Shown: piece by piece, positions 25,553 through 61,756 of the stretch | Position numbering within the stretch: position 1 is the stretch's first letter | Layout of the letters: the number at the start of each line of letters is the position of its first letter | Source: Tetraselmis striata | Taxonomy: Eukaryota; Chlorophyta; Chlorodendrophyceae; Chlorodendrales; Chlorodendraceae | Assembly: GCA_006384855.1 (NCBI GenBank) | Contig: VCJN01000206.1 | Coordinates: 1 to 64,000 of the forward strand | Direction: 5' to 3' | Length of the DNA: 64,000 bases | Program-made: the position numbers and the translations under genes | Notes under the pieces: model-generated | What the model was told of the DNA's origin: nothing | The model's database searches: none | What the model saw: only the letters and a program-made list of their open reading frames with translations

Positions 25553-25871
25553 TTCAAGTTGAGTCTGGTTTTGCCAAAAAGATCGCACAGGCTGTTTCAC
25601 ACGGTCAAGAGCCGAAATTGGCAGGATGGTTTAGCGAAAGCGTGGAGGGAAAACAGAGTGGGGGGCGCTGCGTGGAACGCAGCGAAAACTGGAAGATGGC
25701 AGGCTCAGCTGTTATGGCTGCTTTTATGTCTACTCGTGCTGCACCCAAAAAAAACGCAACGACAGAGGCCTAGTTCCCGTACCACTGAGCAGCACTTGTA
25801 GCCGAAAAGCGGTTAGGTCAAGGGAGGAAATCCCATAAACTAGATCATTTCAAGTTGAGTCTGATTTTGCC
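25553..25871 (-). repeat. B1-A2-B2 end of the recombinase element
   Basis: Short repeat B flanks A2 on both sides (25849-25871 and 25553-25575), with about 106 bp between A2 and the outer B copy. Confidence 0.7.
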
Positions 25872-27143
25872 AGTCATGAGCGAACGGAGAGAGCGGTGGA
25901 TTGACGGAGAAGGGGTAGCGCCAGGTCATGAAGTAGGCACCGGGAAGGCCACCTACCGCTGCGGAGTCCTGTTGGACTTGGAAGTGGCGGAGTGGAGCGA
26001 TGTAGCCAAAGAAGAACCATGCGCCAGGTGAAGGAAGAACGTTGGGGTCGATGTAGTCCAGAACGACGTCGGAGTTTAAGGCCCAGCAGCATTGGTAGCG
26101 AATGTGGGACAATGGTACTCCGATGCCGTTGGCCGCAGACGCTGCTCCCTTGCGAAGGCTGTGTGAAGTCCAGGAATTGCCGGCGGGAAGGGCAGCACCG
26201 ACAAGACGGACGGCTGTAGACATCCAGTCCGACATTGTAGCGGCGGTCCAAGGTTTTGACTGCTCGCTCGGGGTGACCGCCCGGAAGTTTGTTTCAGCCA
26301 AGGCAACAGTAACCCGGGGGGCAGACTGATGTACGTTGTCGAGGAAGTGGTGCAGGAGACGTACAATTCGGGGGTGCTCTGACACCGGAAGGAGAAGTAC
26401 GCGCAGGTCGTCGGGTCCGCCCGTCGGCCAGCGCGGCCTTTTTCGCGGTACACCTGCAGGGTAATGGTGTAATCGTCGACATGCACATCCCGCACTCGGC
26501 AGGAGACCCCAGTAAGTCCTCCGGCAAAGAACATGAAGTTGACAACCGAGGCCACGAGGGCTCGGAAGTCGTGTTGGTACTATGGGGTGGGAGTAGACAC
26601 AATCAGCTCGGCCTTTGTGACGAAGCGGTAAGCTACATCAGCAGGCATAGGAACTCGCAAAGGGGCGGTTTCCAGACGGCGCTGCCGCAGCATCAGCCCA
26701 CGCCTTGCCGAAGTGAGGTGTAGGCTGTCCTTGGCGATTGGGTCGAGGTTGTGCAACTCGAAGAACGTGTTGATTGCAGACAGGTAGGGTTGCAGTGACT
26801 TAGCTCCAATGTGCCCTCGCTCACCAATCCAGGCAACGTACCGAACGACAGTAGCAGTAGTCGCCTCCAGCGGGTTGATGCTCTCGGAGTCGTGGCAGAA
26901 CTCCGCGAACTGAGACAGTCTGCCGGCGTAGCTCTTGAGTGTCTGAGCAGTGAGGGAGCTGGAGAGCAGGTCGAGTGTCCGCTGTCCAAGCTCGTCTGAG
27001 CGGAAAGCATCCTGCAGTCGAGAACGCAGTGAAGCATCCCATGGAGCGACAGCCTCGTGCTCGTCAATCACGTAAGTACGTCGTTTTACCGACAGAGTTC
27101 CAGAGGTGCGACTAATGTTTGCAAAGTACTCGCTCGGCAGCAA
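25840..27143 (-). pseudogene. Tyrosine recombinase region (broken) of the retroelement
   Basis: The upstream part (about 26580-27143) resembles the SAM-like core-binding domain of tyrosine recombinases, with L-K-S-Y-A-G-R-L-S-Q-F and V-R-Y-V-A-W-I. The downstream part carries the catalytic H-S-L-R-K-G-A-A-S-A-A box and a later V-L-D-Y-I-D-P that would supply the nucleophilic tyrosine. The pattern is that of DIRS/PAT/Ngaro recombinases, which integrate circular DNA intermediates. The region is not one continuous frame. Confidence 0.75.
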
Positions 27144-34174: not shown

Positions 34175-37100
34175 CTAGTAGCGCTCGCCAAAGCGCAGGA
34201 AGAAGTTGCCCTTGCCGGCATTGCAGTCCTTGGCGTACTCCACGCGTACGGGGCCCAGCTTGAGGCCGCCACCCCAGCTGACACCGCTGCCGGCGCGGCG
34301 GAAGTACTCGGTGGGGTTGCCGCGCAGCTCCTTGGACGAGCCGAGGTCCGAGCCAAACTCGTAGAACCCGTAGACCTGCTGGCCGGCCACCGGGACGCGC
34401 AGCTCGCCGGAGACCTCCACAAACTTGCGGCACGCGGCCACCTCGCCGACGTTGTAGCCGCGGATGCTGTGGGGCCCACCGATGGTGAAGTAGTCGTACG
34501 AGGCGACGTCGCCAATGCAGCCGCCGTAGCGCGCGTGCGCGACCGCCACCATCGGCGGGCTGGCGCTGTTGGGCTTGGGGCTCTGCAGCTTGATGAAGCG
34601 CGTGAAGGTGGCCAGGTGGCGGTTGAAGAAGGGCGAGGTGCTGCCGATGCCCAGGCCCTGGTCCACCTGGAAGATGTCGCGCGCGCCGACCACAGAGCCG
34701 TTGACAAAGTAGGTGGTGTCGCGCGTGAGGTTACCCTGCGGCCAGCAAACACACAGCCCAGGCGGAAGGGCGTCAGTGGGCTGGGACACCGCTCGATGCG
34801 GGACTGCGCGCGGCTGCCCACATGCAGTTGTGTTGGCATCTTCCAGGGTATGGGCACCTATCACATGCATATTCTCTTCCTGTCCCCAGACAACTGCAAC
34901 GTGCACTGTATCGATAGGTGCATCAATCGCCTTTCAAATGTCCGCAACTTTGGTATCAAGTCGTGCAAGACACATGCCCGACATATGACACATCAGTCAT
35001 ATGTACACTGCTGATTCAACGCATCGACATAGACATAGACAAATACTACGCGGTACACATGGGGTAACGGCAGCAGCTGGCAGCTGTTGAGCTTTGCGGC
35101 TAGATGGATGGCAGTTGTTCTGTGACAAAGTTTCAACAAGCAGCTGACAACATACCTGTCCCACAGATAAATAAAGGGGAAGATCGCGCGAAGCACCTAT
35201 CAAGCGCACCGCGCATTCCGCCGCCCCATCCCTTGAGCACGCTCACCATGCTAATGTATCACATGAGTGGTGCGCCGTGGCATCTGGTGGTATATTTGTT
35301 CCGGCGCAAGCACACGCTGCGCCCTATGTTGACCGTAAACACCAGGCTGAACCGAAAGTGAGGCGGGAAAAGGGGGGGGGGGGGGGGGGGGGAGGGGGTC
35401 ACCTGCAGGAAGGCGAGGCGGTCGGTGCCGGTGTCGGACAGCGTGGTGGGCGGCCCCTCACCAGCCATCTGCCCCATGGGCAGCTGGCGGGTGCAGTGAG
35501 TGCAGAGGTTGCCGCTGTCGTCGCGGGTGGCGATCTCCTCGATCACCACCCCCAGCGTGCCCTTGCTGTTGCGGCTGTACGTTTCGTGGACAGAGATCTT
35601 GCCGCCCATGCGGTCCACCCACACGGCGGGCACCTCGTCGCCGCCGGGGCCGGGTGTGAAGACGCCGCTGAGCTTGCGGCTGTTGAAGGCGGTGACGCCC
35701 AGCGCGGCGCGGTTAGGGTCGTCGGGGCCGTAGATGTACGGGTGGCGGTAGTCCACACGGAAGCCGAGGTCATCGCCGGGCGAGATGAAGTTCTGCGTGG
35801 AGATGGAGGCGCTCAGGGTGCGCCCCTTCTTGCCCAGGTTGCGGTGCTCAAAGAGCAGCTGGCCGCCGGGCACGATGGACACCAGGCTGGGCTGCCCGCG
35901 GTCGCCGGGCGCAATGGCCCACTCGCACTCCACCTCCGCCGTCTTCATCGGCCGCTCCTTCAGCATGACATCCACGTCGACCTTCTTCTCGTCGCGCGGG
36001 TTGGCGCGCGGCACCACCTGCACGTTGTCAAACATCTGCAGCGCAAAGATGTCGCGCAGCGCGCGGCGGCCGTCTTCTGTGTTGTACAGCTGGCCCGGCT
36101 TGAACGGCAGCTCGCGCAGCACGATATCGGGGTCCGTCTCGCCGCCGCTCTTGCGCGGGTTGCCCTGGTCGTCCACGTACACCACATTGATGTTGTCCAC
36201 CTGCGCGGGGTGCCAAGGACAGGGCGTGTAAGGGAGCGGTGCCAAAGCAAAAAAGAAGGGCATGCAGGGCTCGAGCGCAAGAGGGGGGGCTCACCCTGCC
36301 CTCGACCACATTGGCAACTATCTGGCCGGTGTCCATGCCATCGAAGTGGGAGATGTAGCCAAAGGCGTACCCGCGATCCTGGTACCTGCGGGCGTGAGGC
36401 AGGAACAGCGATGGCGTCAGCAGCCGCATCAAAGGCCGGGGGGGGGGGGGGGGGGGGGGGTCCGCAGCGGTTGGGCAGGGGATGGCACTGGCTCGCAGGG
36501 TGGAGGTATGGCACGTGCGCTCGGCTCACCAGCCCTCGACGATGTTCTTGATAGAGGCGAGCGTCTGCACGGTGGTGGGGCCACCGGGGTGGTTATCCAT
36601 GACCTTGGGCGGCACCTCCTTCGGCAGGATGGACGCGCCGTCCACCGAAAACTCGGTCATGGGCGGCCAGATCTTCTCGCTGAACATGAAGGTCAGGCGA
36701 CTCTTGCCGTTGGCGGTCGGCGTCACGTTGGCGTCCACGTTGTCAAACAGACCCGACCTGGCAGGTGGGGAGGCAAGCGGGCTCAGGGACTCTTGCGTTG
36801 CGCAGCGATTGGCCGGATGGAAGAGAGGGGTGGAGAGGAGGAGGGGGGAGGGGGCGCACTGGAGCAGGGTGCGCAGGTCCTCGGACAGCTCGGCACGATT
36901 GCACTTAAAGCCGGACTGGCACTTGAGACCAGCAAAGAGCTCATCCGCGGTGGGGATGCCCTGTCCAATGGGCAGGCCCTCCGCCACAATTTCATTGCAA
37001 AAAAACTCGTTGGAGTTGGTGGCCGAGTACTCCTCGTCATCGTCGCCATCCTGTTGACGAGAAAGGAAGGCGGGGGTGAGGGAGAGGGGTGGGGGGGGGG

Positions 37101-49289: not shown

Positions 49290-51509
49290 CTAGAAAATGC
49301 CGGGCGCAGCAGGCCACGGGCGGGGGTCACGGGCGGGAATGTTGAAGGCGACGACAGGCCAGCGGGGTGCGCCCACAGGAAGGCGGTCGCCGGTACGGCC
49401 AGGAATGAAGAGGTCGTGGCTCGGCTTCCAAGAGCGCATGTCGGAGCACATCTCCGAGAGGAGCTGGTACCAAGCTTTGTCAGGCCAGTAGGGAACAATG
49501 ACGATGGCTGGGGCACCGCTGGACTCAAGTTTGGAGACTAGATCGCCGATGAGGTTCCACGGAGGGTTACACCAGTTACCTTCGCAACGCCATGCAGCGT
49601 CGGAGAGGCGCAGGGCGTCGACGGCCTCGCACCGCGGGTCACGCCAACGGGCGTTGTAGCGGGGCAGGAGGGCGTTTTCAGAAGTCGCGAAGCGGTCGAT
49701 GGTGCAGGCGCCCCATTTAGCAGTGAGCGAGGCGAATCGACGAGGGTTGAACTGCCAGTCGTCGCAATCAACCTCGCGACTAAGGCAGTCAGCCCAGATA
49801 TTCGCCGCAGAACGGATGTAGCGCACGGAAAGGGTGATGCCGTGCGTGTCCATGAGGTACCACGTTTTGCGTAGCTCAGCCATGAGGCGTGGAGAGCGAG
49901 AGGTGAGGTTAGTGAGGACGCCGACAACTGCTTGGTTATCCTCGTGCAAGCGGATGTGGCGGTTTTGGAGCATGGGGAGGAAGGACTCGATAGCCAAGCG
50001 GACGGCTTTGAGCTCTTTCAGGGTAATGTGCGCATTGCGATCATCGTCGTACCAAAAACCCCGAGCTTCATGGTGCTCGTTCAAAACGGCACCCCAGCCG
50101 TAAGACGAACTGTCGACGTGTAGGTATCCGGTTTCGACGGGGCGGTTAATGGGGCGGCCGTTGTGTTGGGTGGGCACACCCACCCACCATTGCAGATCGC
50201 GCTCGAACTGGCGGGTAAGCTTGACGCGGCCGGACCAAGAGTCGCGCGTCTTGAGCACATCATGCAGCTCACGAAGGTAGAAATGGGCAGGGGCAATGGC
50301 CAAGTAGAGAAACTGGCATTTGCCCGCGAGAGCGGCCAACTCGCGAGCTGGCAACCACCGACGATCGCGTTTTGCTCGTTGGATTAGGCGTTTGGCCGCG
50401 CGAGCAATGCTGGCGAGTTTCTCAGCGGGCGCACGAAGAGTAGGTGACCCCGATGTGTCAATTTCTAACCCCAGGTGCACGAGCTTCTGGGTGGGCTCCC
50501 ACACGCCCTTGTTGGGGTTGCGCAGCAGACCAAAGCCCGAGAGGTGGCGTTCGATGTAGTCACGTTGCCAGATGGCCTCAGCCTGAGTCCGAGCTAGAAA
50601 CAGGAAATCGTCCATGTAGGGCAACATGCGCAGGCCAAATCGTCGCGGGAAAATAGGTGTGCCATCTGCTTCAGCCGGGTTACGACGCAATGCCCTAGTG
50701 AGGACGTTGGTGAATTGGCAGAAGTAATAGGGGGACAGAGACCAGCCCATGGGAAGGCCAGCCAGTCGGTACAGAGTGCCGCGGTAATCGACAGTGAAAA
50801 ATTCCCTGTCCTCAGGGGCGATTCCAACCGCGTAAAACCCGTCTTGCAGGTCCATCTGTAACATGTAGTCTCCAGGGCGCGCCAGGTTGCGTAAATGCGA
50901 AAGCGTCTCAAACGAAAGATCGCGCGTCTCACAATAGCGGTTCAGGGGGCGAAGGTCAATGATGAGCCTCCATTTGTTTGTTCCAGGCTTAGGAACCAGG
51001 AACAGCCGGGACACCCATTTTGCGCAGTAGCCTCGCTCCCAGGCCCCAACGGCCAGGAAGCGAGCCAATTCACCGTCCATAAACTCCAGTTGAGCAGGAG
51101 TAGCATCCCCCATTGACACCCCCTGATGAAAAGAAGGTGGGGCAAGCCCGTCCAAGAAAGGAACGCGTACACCTCGGGATATCCAGTTGAGAACACTGCG
51201 ATTTGCGCCAGCGGCTTGCCAGTTGCCGAGATTACGACGGACGCGATGTCTCATAAAAGGGGAGTCGGGAGTACAGGAATTGGCGCGATGGATGTCGCGA
51301 GGGGGGCGAGCAGAGCGCCCTGTCGCTCTGCTGGCCCTCTCCGCGTCGGCGTCAGGGTCCACGGTGCGCGGCACAGTAGGAGTGCCGCGGCGTGGGAGTA
51401 GCCATGTGCCACTGGGCGCTGGCTTGGCCACTGGCAGTGTACTGTCACTTTGTACTCGAATCTGTACTAGACGACGGGCATACGCCCCAATCGGAGCGCA
51501 TCGCGACAC
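49290..51509 (-). CDS. Reverse transcriptase / RNase H of the DIRS/PAT-like element
   Basis: A single 739-codon frame ending right at repeat B1. RT motifs: L-I-I-D-L-R-P-L-N-R-Y, Q-M-D-L-Q-D-G-F-Y-A-V, L-P-M-G-W-S-L-S-P-Y-Y-F and the catalytic M-L-P-Y-M-D-D-F-L-F-L. The RNase H part follows with Y-L-H-V-D-S-S-S-Y-G-W-G-A and L-H-E-D-N-Q-A-V. A further C-terminal block (F-A-T-S-E-N-A-L-L-P-R-Y, then W-C-N-P-P-W, then V-I-V-P-Y-W-P) is the tail typical of DIRS-class polymerases. It copies element RNA into DNA. Confidence 0.9.
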   Translation of the reverse strand: MSRCAPIGAYARRLVQIRVQSDSTLPVAKPAPSGTWLLPRRGTPTVPRTVDPDADAERASRATGRSARPPRDIHRANSCTPDSPFMRHRVRRNLGNWQAAGANRSVLNWISRGVRVPFLDGLAPPSFHQGVSMGDATPAQLEFMDGELARFLAVGAWERGYCAKWVSRLFLVPKPGTNKWRLIIDLRPLNRYCETRDLSFETLSHLRNLARPGDYMLQMDLQDGFYAVGIAPEDREFFTVDYRGTLYRLAGLPMGWSLSPYYFCQFTNVLTRALRRNPAEADGTPIFPRRFGLRMLPYMDDFLFLARTQAEAIWQRDYIERHLSGFGLLRNPNKGVWEPTQKLVHLGLEIDTSGSPTLRAPAEKLASIARAAKRLIQRAKRDRRWLPARELAALAGKCQFLYLAIAPAHFYLRELHDVLKTRDSWSGRVKLTRQFERDLQWWVGVPTQHNGRPINRPVETGYLHVDSSSYGWGAVLNEHHEARGFWYDDDRNAHITLKELKAVRLAIESFLPMLQNRHIRLHEDNQAVVGVLTNLTSRSPRLMAELRKTWYLMDTHGITLSVRYIRSAANIWADCLSREVDCDDWQFNPRRFASLTAKWGACTIDRFATSENALLPRYNARWRDPRCEAVDALRLSDAAWRCEGNWCNPPWNLIGDLVSKLESSGAPAIVIVPYWPDKAWYQLLSEMCSDMRSWKPSHDLFIPGRTGDRLPVGAPRWPVVAFNIPARDPRPWPAAPGIF

Positions 51510-54460: not shown

Positions 54461-54779
54461 GACCTTTCGTGGTCAGCGCCGGGTATGTTGATGGTGCCCA
54501 GTGGGTTAGACGGTGATCCAACATTGTTGGGATTTCTGTCACTGGCCTTAGTCTTGCAGAATGCTTCGGCACTTTGCTTGTTGACTAGAATGGAGCATCG
54601 CCAGGGCTTTCCGTGACTGGATCGCTGCATAAACGGCCGTCGTAGACACGCTGCAAGGATTTCACTGTTGCCAATCCTGTCCCGGAGGGGGGGGGGACGA
54701 GCGCGCTTGCTGTCTGAGTAACCCAGCTATACCTCTCCACATAAGCACGGGGTTTACGTTTTCAACCAACATGCCTACA

Positions 54780-55252
54780 TGTTGACGAACACTGGTCGAA
54801 GCAGGTGATCAACTGGTCCACTGAAGTGTAAGTGAGCCCATCTGGCTTATAGGCAAATAGGCCTGATGATAATATATTCGTAATAGTGCAGTATAAATTA
54901 CGGCTACTGCGCAGAAATGATGGAATGTACTGGTACTATCAAGTGACATATACTGGACCTGCAGAGCAAGACAGGTGTGAGGCATGTGAAGACATGCCTC
55001 ATATAACACTTCATCAAACACACCCAGATTTCTGACAGGTGTCCGACTGAACCTGAATAGCCTTTTAGATATTGGAACCAGATCAAGAAGCATGAGAAAT
55101 GGACAGATGAGCAGATGGAGCATGCCCCTAGCAATGAAGGGCATTCTGCAGATGAGATTATAATGGGACATTTCTCATCATTTGTAATTACAATATTCTG
55201 ATCCCACAGACTCTGTCCCAACAGCAAGCTAGGAATTCTCCGAACTTCTAGA
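54780..55252 (+). repeat. 5' LTR of the Copia element
   Basis: 473 bp, matching 61279-61751 with about four differences; preceded by the CTACA target duplication. Confidence 0.95.
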
Positions 55253-55635
55253 GGTTATGGCTAGCTACACGACTCAAAGCTTCCACTGCTTCTAGCCTGC
55301 TGTTCAGTTCATCGTGCCTGTGTGCCTGTGTGCCTGGAGCTGTGTGCTCGCCTACTTCGTGCCAGCTTTGTGCTTACTTTGTGCCAGGAGCTTCGCTGCT
55401 GAGGAGGGGAAACTGTGTGCCTCTCTCAAACGACTTGTCAAACCCCTGGCCAGCTCTCTCGGCAAAACTCGACCGTTCCCTACCTGAGAAGCGACCCAGC
55501 TCCGAACTCTTCTGCCCCCTTCTCAGCCCCACTCAGCTCCACTCTCTGATTGTGGCTGTGACAACCGATCGTCTCAACTTTGGCAAAGCCCCCCCCTGTC
55601 AGTCTCTCCGACTGTGTACCTGACTCCCTTGCATC

Positions 55636-57027
55636 ATGTCTCTCCCTGCCAAACTCAAGCTCAAGGAGGCCAAGTACCTGGAATTTCAGGAGGTCAATGA
55701 TGCTCGCCTCCTCGTGATCTGGTGCATCTCTGTGAAGCGCCACATCCGCGGTGTTCCTGGGTACCGCAACATCTTCAGCGCCCATGACACCACGGTTGAT
55801 GACGCGCATCACAGTGAAGCTGTCAGCTTTATGGCTTCCCTACTGCTAGATAATCAAGCCAAGGGCATCGTGCTCAAGGCCGCTGATCGCGCCAATGAGA
55901 CAGCAGGCGGACGCGCGGCGCTCAAGGCCTTCCAGGAACTCCGCGCTTCATACCTTCCATATGAACGTACCCTTCTCGCTCAACTGAAAGCGTCACTGAA
56001 TCATGGTTAGAGTACTCATGAAAATCTCCTTGACTTCATGACCCGGCTGGAGGACCTGCAAATTGCCATCAAAGACTGTGGTGCGACTGTCTCGGATGAC
56101 GACATGCTTGTATCCCTGCTCAATGGCATGCGCACTGAGGAGGCCACTATCCGAGCAGTGGTGAAGGGGGACCCCACTGTCACCACCTTCGAGCTGGCCA
56201 AGGCAAAGATCAGGACTGTCCAAGACCACAGCATCAGTATGGAGCAACCTGGCGCTGCCTTTGCTGCCCTTGCGCCAACTGGGGCGACCTCCTATGCTGC
56301 CCTCCAAGCCCGCGTAACTGAGCTGGAAGCTGAGAAGAAGAAGGCCGAGGCTGCAACCCGCAAGTCCGAGGTAGACGAACTGAAGGCTATGGTGGCTGTA
56401 ATGCAGTCCCAGCACAACGCTGGAGGCGGCGGCAGTGCACTGCGCTTCAATTCGCAGAACCGCCGCTGCTACAACTGCAATGCCATCGGACATTTGGCCC
56501 GTAACTGCCCCAAGCCCGACAAGAGGAAGACAGCAGGAGAAGGCCGCCCAAGGCTTGCACCTGGTTCAGAGGAGCCGCCCGCCAAGGAGTTTGGAGCACT
56601 GTCGTTCCACATGGCGCTACTTGCCAACGCCACACCTGAGCTCCCACCCATGCCGACTGACGCTTGGTCCGTGATGCCTACTAGCCGTCGCACCATGATC
56701 AGGGCAGCGCCGCCACCCCCGCTCAGCTCTCACAACCCGTTCGGTTCCCTCACCTTCTCCGATGACACCGCTGGCCCAGACGATGAGCCTACCCTCCTGG
56801 AAGAGCGCGAAATGCGAGACGCCATCGCCGCTGTGTCAGCTGAAGAGCAAGCTATTGCTGCCGCCGTTGCGGCAGTCACTGAGGAGGAAGCTGCGGAGCG
56901 TGCCGCCATTGCTGACGTTGCAGCCTTCATCGCAGCCCCACCCTGTGGCCATGACTGTGGCCCGCACAAGCAAGGCGACCATCCTGCCCAACGACGTTGC
57001 CATGCGCCGAGCTATCATCACAAATGA
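55636..57027 (+). pseudogene. Gag region of the Copia element
   Basis: Capsid-like helical region followed by a basic/coiled stretch (L-E-A-E-K-K-K-A-E-A-A-T-R-K) and a zinc knuckle C-Y-N-C-N-A-I-G-H-L-A-R-N-C. Family and order fit Ty1/Copia Gag. Not a single intact frame. Confidence 0.85.
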
Positions 57028-58070
57028 TCCCACCCCATGGCCTGCTGACTGGCTGCACTCGGCCGCCCACCGCTCGGGTAAGGCACCAGTCCCGATGCCA
57101 ACTGTGACGCACGTCGTACCTGCTTCTCGCTTCAACGCGTCGACCATCAGTGGCATGTCTTCTGACTGCAGTCCCCTGAGCGATCGTGATCTCGGATACG
57201 ACAGCGCCGATGATGACGAAGCTATGCTGGTGGATTTCCAGCGTCGCTGGGCGCCGGCTGCACTTGCAGCACGTGGCTTCGCTCCCGCTGATGATCTGAC
57301 ATTGTCACCCGTATCTGACGACACTGGCTGCGAGAACAACAGCGTTCCTGGGCTTATTAGCGACGACAGTATCAGTGACAATGACTTCTCCCAGCACGCA
57401 AGCCCGGCCTCGCTCTGTGGCATACCCACTACTCAGTCGCACACGACTGACAGCGTCTTCCCCGACTCTGACAACATGCCGCACCTGGCCCCGGACAACA
57501 CTGATGATGACAAGGCCGTCTCGATCGGTCGCCGCTCCTCCTCGTTGGGCGCACGCAGCAATCCCAGCACCCGTGCATTAAAACATCACCGCCGCGCCAT
57601 TCATGCCATTGCCCGCACCTTCACAGCGTGGCCCAATGCCAGCCTCCCTGGGACTTCCCCAACTGCGCCTGCTGTCATGCGCAACATATATCTGGACGAT
57701 TCCGTGGACTCCTTTCGCCTCGTGCCCCGCAATGCCGTGTCCATTCAAAATCCATCGACGCAGCATGTTGCTGCTCACGAGGGCGTCTCATCCAGTAACG
57801 CCAGGCTCTCCATGACCAAGAGTGCACGTCGTCATCGCAATCGCCGCTCAGCTCGTCGCCTTCGAAAGCGCGACCCCTTTGCCATCGGGGGCACCAAGCA
57901 CTTTGCAGCCACCACCCCAGTTGTCATCCCCTCGCCCCCTCCCAACGCTATCGACCAACTGGAGACTGCTCTGGCGGCCGCTGAACAGCGTTGTTTCCTG
58001 GGAGAGGCAGCGCCACTGCCGTCCATCCGCCACGTTCGTGCCGACCCTGCAGCACTGATGCCCCACCATC

Positions 58071-58960
58071 CACTCCATGTTGTCATCCTCTGCGCAGGAG
58101 CCACATTTGGCGTCATTGACGGACTCTGTGCAGCCGGACACTGCATTGCTACCATCACACTCGTGGAGAATGACGCCGCAGTGCGTGCTGCCGGGATCCT
58201 GGAGCTCAAAAGAGTCCGTGCAAAATGGACTGCGCTCATCTCATCTGATGCGATCGCCAATGCCTACGATCGCCTACCCACTCATGACGTCCAGCTCCTC
58301 ATCACAGACATGTTTGCAGCACTTCCGCGTGTGGACCTCCTCGTGGCAACACCTCCGTGCCAGCCGTTCTCATCAGCTGGGAGGAATCAAGGCCTGCATG
58401 ACCAGCGAGCCAAGCCCTTCTATGCCGTCTGCCGTCTTGTCAAGGAGCTCAACCGCGTACAGAGCAATATCACATACGTCATCGAGAAAGTCGCTGGAGC
58501 CGGGCGTTTCCCCGCCATTCGCGCAGCCCCGGGGGGCCCTGTCCTGGCCCGCGCACACGAGCTCGGATCATCATCCCGCCGCGATACCCTACTCTGGACC
58601 AATGCGCGCAACCCGGAGGAGCTGCAGGCCCACTACCATCGTTCGCTCTGTCGCCCAAACAGCGTGGGCGATCTGATTTCCAAGGGTGACTTCGCACCAG
58701 AGTGGCAGGCTCCCGCCCACCTGCGTCACAGCAAGTTTGGCAAATTTGTGTCCCGCAAGGGCAGCTATGCGCATCGGATGCATGGGTCCACCCCGGGCAG
58801 CAGTATGTTGCTACACAATGACGTGTATGAGGAGGCACCCACCGACATCAAATGCGTCTCTATGGGCTTCGATGCCAATGCCGTCGACTTCCCCGAGGTG
58901 TCCGCCGATCTGCGTCGACGTATCATCGTAGCTGGCTGTGGACTCAAACGTGGCGCGCTG
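58071..58960 (+). CDS. DNA (cytosine-5) methyltransferase domain captured by the Copia element
   Basis: It lies near the end of a long open frame (56762-59011), between the Gag and protease regions. Signature blocks: the motif I region (V-V-I-L-C-A-G-A-T-F-G-V-I-D-G-L), the catalytic P-C-Q loop of motif IV in V-A-T-P-P-C-Q-P-F-S-S-A-G-R-N-Q, the motif VI region (Y-V-I-E-K), the motif VIII region (S-S-R-R-D-T-L-L-W) and a motif X-like end. Such enzymes transfer a methyl group from S-adenosylmethionine to cytosine C5 in DNA. The roughly 1.3 kb of Ser/Asp/Ala-rich linker before it (56762-58070) has no recognised domain. Methyltransferase capture by retrotransposons has been reported for a charophyte alga and a dinoflagellate; the presence here is seen directly, the role is inferred. 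Confidence 0.85.
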
Positions 58961-59033
58961 GCTGATGGCGGCTATCTCCTCCGCGTCCAAGGACGAGAGC
59001 GCTCTTCCTAGCATTCACACCTTCCCCCACAAA

Positions 59034-61284
59034 TGGATCTTCGACTCTGGCGCTACCTCGCACATGGTGGCGCAGTACGAGGACTACTCCGACTATCAGA
59101 CCATACCGCGCCGATGGATCAGCGGCTTGGGCGCCTACGCTGTGGGTACCGGTACAGTCCATATCAGCATGCGAGCCGTCAACGGCGATTCATCCTGCAG
59201 CACCCTGCACAACGTTCTTCATGTGCCTGATCTCGCTTCCCGCACCAATAACGAGGTGCTTCATCTCTTCAGTGCGCGGCAGGCGCAGGATGCCAATGCA
59301 GCCCTACAGATAGTCATGACAGCGCGCAGCAGCGCCATGCAGATCTCCGATGCCGTAACCATTCCCATCGAGAATGACGGGCGCTTATTTATCTTGCACA
59401 GTCACGTGCTCCGTCACGGATGGCGTCAACGTCACGGTAGGTGGAAGCTGCCACAGCCCTCTCCGCAACACCCTCCAGCGCATTACCATCTGACAAAATG
59501 TTGTGGCATGCGCGCCTCGGTCACATCCACGAGCGCGCCATGCACCGAGTTACCAATGGGGAACCCGATGCCAACCTGCGTCATACCAGCCTTCCGTTCT
59601 GCAAGTCATGCGCAATCGTCAAATCCACTGTGGCCCCGATGCCGCGCATCTGTCATGAGAAACCAACTGTGTCATTCTCTCTCGTTGGGAGCGACTTCTG
59701 GGAGCTGCGCACTCCTTCGTTGCAAGGCCACACGTACTGCTGTGGGTACGTCGACTACGCGACATCTCTGGTGTGCTTGTTCTTCTGCAATTCCCGACAA
59801 TGTGCTACCGTTACTCTGCGTTCATTCAACACCATGGTGGTCAGCTACGGCCATTCCATCGCAGCATTGCGTCTGGACAACGATACAGCCTTCCGCGGTC
59901 AAGCATATGTGTCCGCCTGCGACGCCCTGACCATTCGCCGCACATATGCAGCACCATACAGCCAGTTCCAGAATGGGCTCGCTGTGTGCTGGACTACGCC
60001 AGCCTTAAAGACACCTACTGGGAGTTCGCCATGTCGGTCGCAGCCTACATCTATAACCGCACCTTCCGCCGCGGAGTTCATGGAATTTCACTTCACCTCG
60101 TGACTGGCGCCATCCCAGACTTGCGCCATCTCCGTGTGTTTGGCTGTGATGCCTATGCGCACGTTCCCCGCAGTACCCAGCACAAGGCTGCCCCTTCCGC
60201 CCGCCAAGGTGTCTTCGTTGGATACTCCACAGACTCGCCGGCATGGCTTGTGTACTTTCCCGCCACGCGCTCTGTTGTGGCCAGTCGATCCGTCACCTTC
60301 GATGAAACTGATCGCTCCACGCCCTGCACCCTGGAGCACCCGGATTCATGGCCGTCTGCAGCCCCTCAGGAGGGGATGACTACAGAGTCAGGAGGGGCCA
60401 CAGCCGCCAAGACAGGAGGGGCTGTGCCCCGAGCAATATGCCCTACCTGCTCGGCATCAACTCACTCCGTGGAACTCCCACCAGCATGGAAGCCCACTCG
60501 CGTCTGCAACATGACAATACCATCCGATGTCAGCGAATCCGACAGCTGCAGCGACAGCGACAGCGACAGCAACCCTATCGAGCACCACCGTGTACGCACT
60601 CCGCCCCCGCCTCAGCCACCAGCAGAAGGACCAACACCTCAGCCACCTACCTCAGCTATACCTCCCAGCACCCGTCCGCAGCCCCCAACTCAGGCACACA
60701 TGGAAGATGCACGACACTGCCTCCGGTACCTGAAAGGAACTCATGACCGGGGACTGACTTTCGGAGGAGAATGCGAGTTTCGTCTTCATGGTTACAGCGA
60801 TGCTAACTTCTCAACAATGTATCCCAGTCAGTGCAAGTCGACCAGCGGTTGTGTATTCTTTCTTGCAGGAGCAGCCGTCAGCTACCTATCCAAGCTTCAG
60901 CCATTGGTAGCACTCTCGACAGCAGAGGCAGAATATATAGCGCTTTGTGTCACAGCGCAGGAGGCAATGTTCTTGAGGCAGATGCTATCATAACTGGGAT
61001 TCAGGCAGGACGGCGCCACAGCAATCGGAGAGGACAACCAGGCATGTATTACAATCGCCACCAACGACGTGACCTCACCCCGGACCAAGCACCTGGACAT
61101 CCGACTTCACTTCGTGCGAGATGCACAACGCTCTAAGGAAATCAAGGTGCACTATGTGCCCACTGCTGACATGCTGGCTGACACCTTCACGAAGCCACTT
61201 GCGTCCCGCCAGCAGTTTGAGGCCTTGAACTCGCGCATCATGAAGTACAAGATTGCACCTGCAACCAGTGAGGAGGGGTGTTGA
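59034..61284 (+). pseudogene. Pol region of the Copia element (protease, integrase, RNase H parts)
   Basis: Protease: W-I-F-D-S-G-A-T-S-H-M. Integrase head: L-W-H-A-R-L-G-H-I with a following C-x-x-C; integrase core: L-R-L-D-N-D-T-A-F. Beyond it is the usual Copia G-V-F-V-G-Y-S box. RNase H: Y-S-D-A-N-F and V-A-L-S-T-A-E-A-E-Y, then T-A-D-M-L-A-D-T-F-T-K-P-L. The order protease - integrase - RNase H marks Copia and excludes Gypsy. The region is broken. Confidence 0.88.
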
Positions 61285-61751
61285 CGAACACTGGTCGAAG
61301 CAGGTGATCAACTGGTCCACTGAAGTGTAAGTGAGCCCATCTGGCTTATAGGCAAACAGGCCTGATGATAATATATTCGTAATAGTGCAGTATAAATTAC
61401 GGCTACTGCGCAGAAATGAGGGAATGTACTGGTACTATCAAGTGACATATACTGGACCTGCAGAGCAAGACAGGTGTGAGGCATGTGAAGACATGCCTCA
61501 TATAACACTTCATCAAACACACCCAGATTTCTGACAGGTGTCCGACTGAACCTGAATAGCCTTTTACATATTGGAACCAGATCAAGAAGCATGAGAAATG
61601 GACAGATGAGCAGATGGAGCATGCCCCTAGCAATGAAGGGCATTCTGCAGATGAGATTATAATGGGACATTTCTCATCATTTGTAATTACAATATTCTGA
61701 TCCCACAGACTCCGTCCCAACAGCAAGCTAGGAATTCTCCGAACTTCTAGA
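61279..61751 (+). repeat. 3' LTR of the Copia element
   Basis: 473 bp; preceded by a purine-rich tract and followed by CTACA. Confidence 0.95.
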
Positions 61752-61756
61752 CTACA

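Follow-up and report, generated by a model that had tools for sequence, protein, structure and literature searches.

The window considered here, which is the whole stretch of DNA analysed, covers 64 kb of one contig (VCJN01000206.1, positions 1 to 64,000) from the green alga Tetraselmis striata, whose assembly comprises 224,097,584 bp in 2,903 contigs. A defective copy of a Copia retrotransposon with an embedded cytosine-C5 methyltransferase (MTase) lies at 54780-61751 on its forward strand. Judged from the related sequences of the same genome, the MTase is an old, selected module and not a one-off insertion, and it is almost certainly a regular and selected part of the element. This reading is carried by the long terminal repeats (LTRs) of the family, by the open reading frames of at least four subfamilies, and by the substitution pattern within the domain.

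The MTase-Bearing Copia Family

A search of the host assembly with the LTR of the window element, in which 40 of 103 candidates were scored, gave matches on 23 contigs. Among the scored matches there are 14 full-size LTR pairs (6.6-8.2 kb), and every one of the 14 encloses an MTase match. Three single LTRs adjoin an MTase match (C2086, C782, C205), and the short pair at C832 is an LTR remainder with only an end piece of the MTase. No MTase match accompanies the three LTRs at C1064 or the single LTRs at C638, C2634, C1394, and C1526. LTRs without the MTase are therefore single LTRs or short remnants, and the full-size pairs found all have it. The 14 pairs and three single LTRs give 17 LTR-linked MTase places that represent element copies. 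The preliminary description of this DNA, which had described a Copia retrotransposon containing a C5-MTase, named LTR copies consistently lacking the domain as the sign of a one-off insertion. With 14 of 14 scored full-size pairs carrying it, the one-off insertion is rejected, and the element is seen to recur with its MTase in the LTR family.

The MTase query itself, with 101 of 535 candidates scored so that copies may be missed, returned at least 102 match rows in the host genome, including the 17 LTR-linked places; some of these rows are fragments of one copy, and not every row is assigned to a subfamily. They fall into at least four subfamilies, A-D, between which the MTase is 32-52% identical. 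Identity to the MTase of the window element, a member of A, is 67-95% in A, about 43-50% in B and C, and 33-35% in D, with a few decayed rows in between. At least 28 rows (12 A, 2 B, 12 C, and 2 D) span the domain without a stop in the matched part and lie in open frames of 1,756-2,483 aa, 16 of which reach at least 2,100 aa; beyond the 28, there is one further such frame with a partial MTase match and one with stops. The domain is also evident in translated copies of A and B. Pfam scans of a C locus (L049, 2,147-aa frame) and a D locus (L039, 2,164 aa) place the MTase ahead of Pol_BBD, gag_pre-integrs, SH3, and RVT_2; the CCHC knuckle and rve were called in L049 only. Other genomic copies with the same domain order, for which the preliminary description proposed a search, are present in C and D, and their frames are open.

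LTR pairs bound 13 of the 16 long C and D loci. The C LTRs are 444-446 bp long and 94.8-99.6% alike in five of six loci, the sixth (L051) having an odd 923-bp pair, and the D LTRs measure 255-333 bp in seven loci. At simple edges, target-site duplications of these 13 pairs are exact over 5 bp in three (L043, L049, L052), cover 4 bp in five, and are absent from five. In the relatives, Gag, protease, integrase, RVT_2, and RNase H lie between LTRs as in Ty1/copia elements. The window copy has the LTR pair, the 5-bp target duplication, the primer-binding site (PBS), and the polypurine tract of such elements, and is without RVT_2.

A search for the reverse transcriptase (RT) with a C-type RT as query (142 of 949 candidates scored) divides the A pairs into two halves. 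RT lies between the LTRs in seven of the 14 pairs, which are 8.19-8.21 kb long, and no RT match was obtained in the other seven (C2889, C2406, C428, C341, C817, C870, and the window copy; 6.57-6.97 kb). Direct reading of the sequence established the loss for C428 and the window copy only, and their junctions differ. Four of the seven RT-less pairs (C428, C2406, C341, C2889) keep an MTase-bearing open frame 1,767-1,806 aa long. RT-less A copies with an MTase frame were presumably moved by the RT of a helper, and these four possibly form a helper-dependent subgroup of A.

Selection and Age of the Domain

Between lineages A1 (eight copies) and A2 (two copies, both RT-less), the ratio of nonsynonymous to synonymous divergence (dN/dS) amounts to 0.20 across the MTase, 0.73 across the linker, and 0.30 from protease to integrase, values that rest on 16 non-independent pairs. 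The MTase ratio of A1 against L025 is 0.26. The synonymous divergence between A1 and A2 varies by region (MTase 0.18, linker 0.06, protease-integrase 0.075), which suggests recombination between A lineages.

Comparison of the MTase with the RT, using one sequence for each subfamily, suggests a common history. The MTase identities are 52% (AB), 46% (AC), 44% (BC), 36% (AD), 35% (BD), and 32% (CD), and the corresponding RT identities are 72, 66, 60, 40, 38, and 39%. The two domains rank the subfamily pairs almost alike, with AB > AC > BC > AD in both. This agreement fits a single domain inherited with pol since before the A-D split. A related Copia family, E, accounts for about 85 of the 142 scored RT rows and has many 1,561-aa frames; its RT is 50-51% identical to that of C and 42% to that of D. 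The one E copy read shows nothing of the MTase (profile score -1.6), and its protease follows soon after a zinc knuckle that was recognised by eye. A single gain on A-D and a gain followed by loss in E both fit this comparison among A-E.

Nature of the Enzyme

The 24 MTase domains aligned (from A, C, and D) were chosen from 46 loci of the host genome for open frames and recognisable motifs, and in all 24 of them C103, E145-N146-V147, R177, and M271-G272-F273 are invariant, corresponding to the catalytic cysteine, motif VI, the arginine of motif VIII, and motif IX. All 24 also match PF00145 (E ≤ 0.01). In subfamily B, PPCQPF, ENV, and SMGF occur in two copies, and another copy outside the aligned set (L038) has GNV at motif VI. 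Open relatives from A to D carry motifs I, IV, VI, VIII, IX, and X in order, and the window copy shows EKV at motif VI and a broken motif X. Alignment by hhalign extends to motifs IX and X of M.HhaI and DNMT3A (probability 84% and 80%). Among ten references, the strongest hhalign match is a DNMT3-like phage enzyme (L002, E 9.6e-12); L006, also DNMT3-like, comes next (4e-11), ahead of a phage enzyme of Dcm type, L007 (1e-10). The MTase of intact copies is likely to be catalytically active.

A structure model built from 36 viral relatives reaches a predicted local distance difference test score (pLDDT) of about 80 at residues 90-150 and a mean of 53; the single-sequence fold reaches 32. In a Foldseek search with 341 rows, C5-methyltransferases or their complexes occupy all of the top 50, led by M.HaeIII and DNMT3, with template modelling (TM) scores of about 0.3 and ten rows at E ≤ 0.001.

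The phylogenetic tree contains 24 rows: eight Copia domains, 12 viral DNMT3-like enzymes, two other phage enzymes, M.HhaI, and DNMT3A. All eight Copia domains group together as a clade (support 100/99). In a tree without one distant row, this clade stands beside M.HhaI and the Dcm-type phage enzyme, weakly (76/91) and with long branches. Grouping of the Copia clade with DNMT3A is not rejected by the approximately unbiased test (p-AU 0.346), nor is grouping with the viral enzymes (p 0.166), in a set that holds a single DNMT3. Because both placements are statistically compatible, the Copia MTase is not filed under DNMT3. Searches of viral contigs with the window protein and the A1 profile, and of prokaryote genome contigs with the window protein, gave no confirmed relative.

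Possible Roles of the MTase

The favoured reading, held with moderate confidence, is a Copia lineage whose C5-MTase is regular and selected within a single Gag-Pol polyprotein and serves in marking the cDNA. In the open relatives that were read, the catalytic motifs persist and the reading frames are still open over very long stretches. The MTase would be made together with Gag, packed in the particle close to the template, and possibly released by the protease, and the cDNA of the element would be methylated ahead of integration. New copies would then carry the mark on arrival, which might conceal them from a host check for unmethylated DNA or might silence them in advance, lowering the cost of insertion to the host. 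That cDNA is the main substrate is proposed more tentatively, with confidence somewhat short of even.

Several observations weigh against cDNA marking by a selected particle enzyme. Strong database profile matches are confined to the surroundings of motifs III-VI. The mean pLDDT and the TM-scores given above are low, and the alignment of phage MTases used for the model partly builds in the fold match. Within close A1 copies dN/dS rises to 0.46, and the pair L022 and L023, with 13 changes, gives 0.78. The related and very abundant family E lives without an MTase, as read in one of its copies. Finally, transition rates at CpG are close to or below those at other C:G sites: 0.0034 against 0.0031 in A, 0.0026 against 0.0030 in C, and 0.0034 against 0.0054 in D, or ratios per site of 1.1, 0.85, and 0.63. 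This count left out L021 and L025 of A, L052 of C, and L041, L043, and L046 of D, together with the fragmentary A loci L027-L037.

Heavy CpG methylation of the copies with ensuing deamination was considered and rejected, since CpG transitions are not clearly elevated; the spectrum would speak against heavy, maintained CpG methylation of the copies, given a lineage where 5-methylcytosine mutates. With no clear excess of CpG mutations in the copies, any such mark would need to be short-lived, to fall outside CpG, or to disappear once the copy has integrated. The LTRs have a CpG pattern of their own. The CpG observed/expected ratio is 0.32 in A (window copy only), 0.33-0.44 in C (L049, L050, L052, L053, L054), and 0.82-0.86 in D. 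An excess of TG/CA accompanies the depletion in the A (window) and C LTRs, and the D LTRs and host DNA are without depletion. None of 566 overlapping 473-bp segments of host DNA in the 64 kb has a ratio of 0.40 or less, and shuffled sequences were as CpG-low as the real LTR in 0 of 5,000 cases for A or C and in 862 for D. The comparison covers the LTRs of A, C, and D and these host segments. Long-term promoter methylation and selection against CpG in enzyme-exposed promoters would both fit the CpG-poor A and C LTRs.

Among the alternatives, the one that survives best, although it is unlikely, is that the MTase methylates RNA (the packaged genome or the tRNA primer) or is a nucleic-acid-binding module of Gag. 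A Gag-side site beside the zinc knuckle would place the MTase against genomic RNA, the profile matches include Dnmt2-type tRNA methyltransferases, and CpG sites carry no clear mutation footprint. A SymbioLINE enzyme produced no DNA methylation in a yeast test, and RNA is discussed as its target (PMC5890265). A pure binding role leaves the conserved catalytic residues of the open copies unexplained, however, and the R..L.WTN-like motif VIII, common to the Copia domains and phage enzymes, leans toward DNA rather than RNA.

Action in trans, on host chromatin or rival elements, with effects on expression or target choice, is a rather improbable explanation. The protein may matter apart from a copy's own reverse transcription, as four of the seven RT-less A copies keep long MTase frames (1,767-1,806 aa), but these frames are possibly just recent. 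The MTase lies within a particle precursor, and nothing was seen of a unit that would express it separately. The weakest alternative, that a single copy took up a host or bacterial gene by chance or as a passenger, draws on the broken state of the window copy, where the MTase frame is the longest open one remaining, and is barely conceivable in view of at least 102 rows, four subfamilies, 14 of 14 LTR pairs, a dN/dS of 0.20, and the matching MTase and RT rankings.

Returning to the favoured reading of a selected particle enzyme, a fuller history may be sketched, which is plausible but stands well short of probable. Copia elements would have independently captured an MTase other than the host DNMT3, either bacterial or phage-like or orphan, as a Gag-side particle enzyme, and this capture would predate the split into four subfamilies. 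Its retention even by helper-dependent RT-less copies would point to particle assembly or cDNA marking, and not to a by-product of pol.

Structure and Decay of the Window Copy

The element is flanked on both sides by the target-site duplication CTACA (54775..54779 and 61752..61756) and bounded by 473-bp LTRs at 54780..55252 and 61279..61751 (both +), so that the LTR pair and duplication given in the preliminary description were recovered at both flanks. The two LTRs differ at four positions (99.2% identity). They end in TCTAGA (55247-55252, 61746-61751) and not in the usual CA, and the LTR of L049 in subfamily C ends in TTAACA. A PBS-like sequence, GGTTATGG, lies directly 3' of the 5' LTR (55253..55260, +); we take it to be of the half-tRNA(iMet) type, as in copia. 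Similar sites adjoin the LTRs in subfamilies C (GGTTATAGGCC, GGTTATGGGCC) and D (GGCTATGGGCCC). The polypurine tract GAGGAGGGG (61270..61278, +) also precedes the 3' LTR in subfamily C.

All internal features are on the forward strand. Gag (55639..56936) contains an in-frame stop at 56008-56010, a frame break near 56936, and a CCHC zinc knuckle at 56464..56517 (PF00098, E 4.6e-7). A 770-aa open frame (56699..59011) covers a linker and the MTase domain at 58049..58960, which matches PF00145 (DNA_methylase) with E 2.4e-10 and 40.8 bits against a Pfam gathering cut-off of 22. The motifs, numbered I-X, are found at 58091-58126 (I), 58346-58381 (IV, PPCQPF), 58475-58501 (VI), 58568-58603 (VIII), and 58850-58873 (IX), and motif X, from 58913, is interrupted near 58933, where the frame breaks. 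In place of the ENV that all 24 aligned relatives show at motif VI, this copy has EKV. The Copia protease (59034..59240, Pol_BBD, E 1.4e-11) has DSGATSH within 59034-59069. It is followed by gag_pre-integrs and the integrase core (59483..59962, Pfam); the frame breaks near 59439, and 37 bases are missing near 59971. The rve match, at 31.4 bits, is slightly below its cut-off of 32.6. SH3_retrovirus lies at 60106..60312 (PF25597, E 2.1e-24). RVT_2, which occupies the site at 60313..60740 in intact relatives, was not found in the window element, either by Pfam scan or by direct reading of the junction. The RNase H end of pol (60790..61284), with an in-frame stop at 60991-60993, is without a Pfam match and is presumed, in the window copy as in the relatives, from RNase H motifs. 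The Pfam order is zinc knuckle, DNA_methylase, Pol_BBD, gag_pre-integrs, rve, SH3_retrovirus. Together with the PPCQPF loop, it bears out the earlier placement of the MTase between Gag and protease.

The damage to this copy comprises the gag stop, frame breaks on either side of the MTase, the broken integrase with its 37-base loss, and the RNase H stop. These lesions, with the deletion of RT, make it non-autonomous. The three frame breaks (near 56936, 58933, and 59439) and the loss of 37 bases occur, among the six copies compared, in the window copy only. Private substitutions, counted over 4.2 kb aligned from 16 A copies after two others were dropped, number 50 in the window copy and 5-22 in each of the remaining 15. 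The element had been called young; its nearly identical LTRs support this, whereas its coding region, broken in gag, beside the MTase, in the integrase, and in RNase H, and without RT, does not. Programmed frameshifting around the MTase was also considered and is rejected, as relatives such as L013 and L049 have a single continuous frame.

Other Features of the Window

A second retroelement is present on the reverse strand at 49293-51509, where a 739-aa frame contains RVT_1 and RNase H-like domains. It also gives a weak match to Dam N6-adenine methyltransferases (E 0.0052, below cut-off), and two retroelements in the window may, on sequence resemblance, each have a DNA methyltransferase. DIRS elements are known to carry Dam-like domains (PMC5890265). 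A frame at 25843-26637 (-) weakly resembles Phage_integrase, a tyrosine recombinase domain (E 0.0036, below cut-off), and is perhaps another DIRS-like remnant. At 34178-36290 (-), a host gene of the TOC75/OEP80 (Omp85) type with an Omp85 domain is probably split by introns. The best solved chain for the TOC75-like protein is 7vcf_B (Toc75, E 4.8e-32), which we take to be algal; the presence of such a gene marks the host as plastid-bearing.

Comparison with Known Systems

Hosts silence transposons by cytosine methylation, yet the Tetraselmis Copia elements keep an MTase under selection. A Copia element with a Gag-side MTase joins the published Gypsy, DIRS, and LINE cases. One genome offers at least 28 domain-bearing copies with long frames, a related MTase-less family as a control, and RT-less copies that keep the MTase, and this combination makes the question of why retrotransposons carry DNMTs testable.

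In the literature searched, as judged by titles and the openings of abstracts, no paper was found on an MTase-bearing Copia element from a green alga. PMC5890265 reports MTase-bearing retrotransposons as LINE and DIRS elements in Symbiodinium and a Gypsy element in Klebsormidium, so that the charophyte and dinoflagellate precedents cited in the preliminary description are as stated. KnitGypsy-Dnmt3 of Klebsormidium nitens is likewise an LTR element of a plastid-bearing host, multicopy, with a C5-MTase in its polyprotein under purifying selection (PMC5890265). It is a Gypsy element whose Pol frame contains the domain, of Dnmt3 class, whereas the Tetraselmis element has the Copia order, with integrase before RVT_2 and the MTase between Gag and protease. 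Motif IV also differs, being PPCQPF in Tetraselmis A and B and SPCNDL in DNMT3A.

SymbioDIRS-Dnmt3 and SymbioLINE-Dnmt likewise comprise many DNMT copies in old and active subfamilies, and the SymbioLINE MTase is an orphan lineage, according to the same text. They belong to other retrotransposon classes, with a tyrosine recombinase or a LINE endonuclease, respectively, and have other domain orders (PMC5890265). Neither of these two domains was found in the scanned pieces of the window, A, C, and D elements, where rve is present in the window, A, and C, and SH3 in the window, A, C, and D. One sentence in PMC12344493 names DNMT3 in "LTR Copia and DIRS" elements, giving no species or structure; it cites the 2018 work, which describes Gypsy, and the Copia case it names is a putative one. 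The same paper describes ChloroDNMTs and orphan DNMTs, and in PMC9998398 the green algae covered by the transcriptome set are reported to lack DNMT3.

The Copia domains share motif IV, PCQ..S, with phage cytosine methyltransferases such as that of Psychrobacillus phage Perkons (L002), and motif VIII, R..L.WTN, with the DNMT3-like phage enzymes. The phage enzymes are free-standing genes with 20-28% identity to the Copia domains, whereas the latter are part of a retrotransposon and form a clade of their own.

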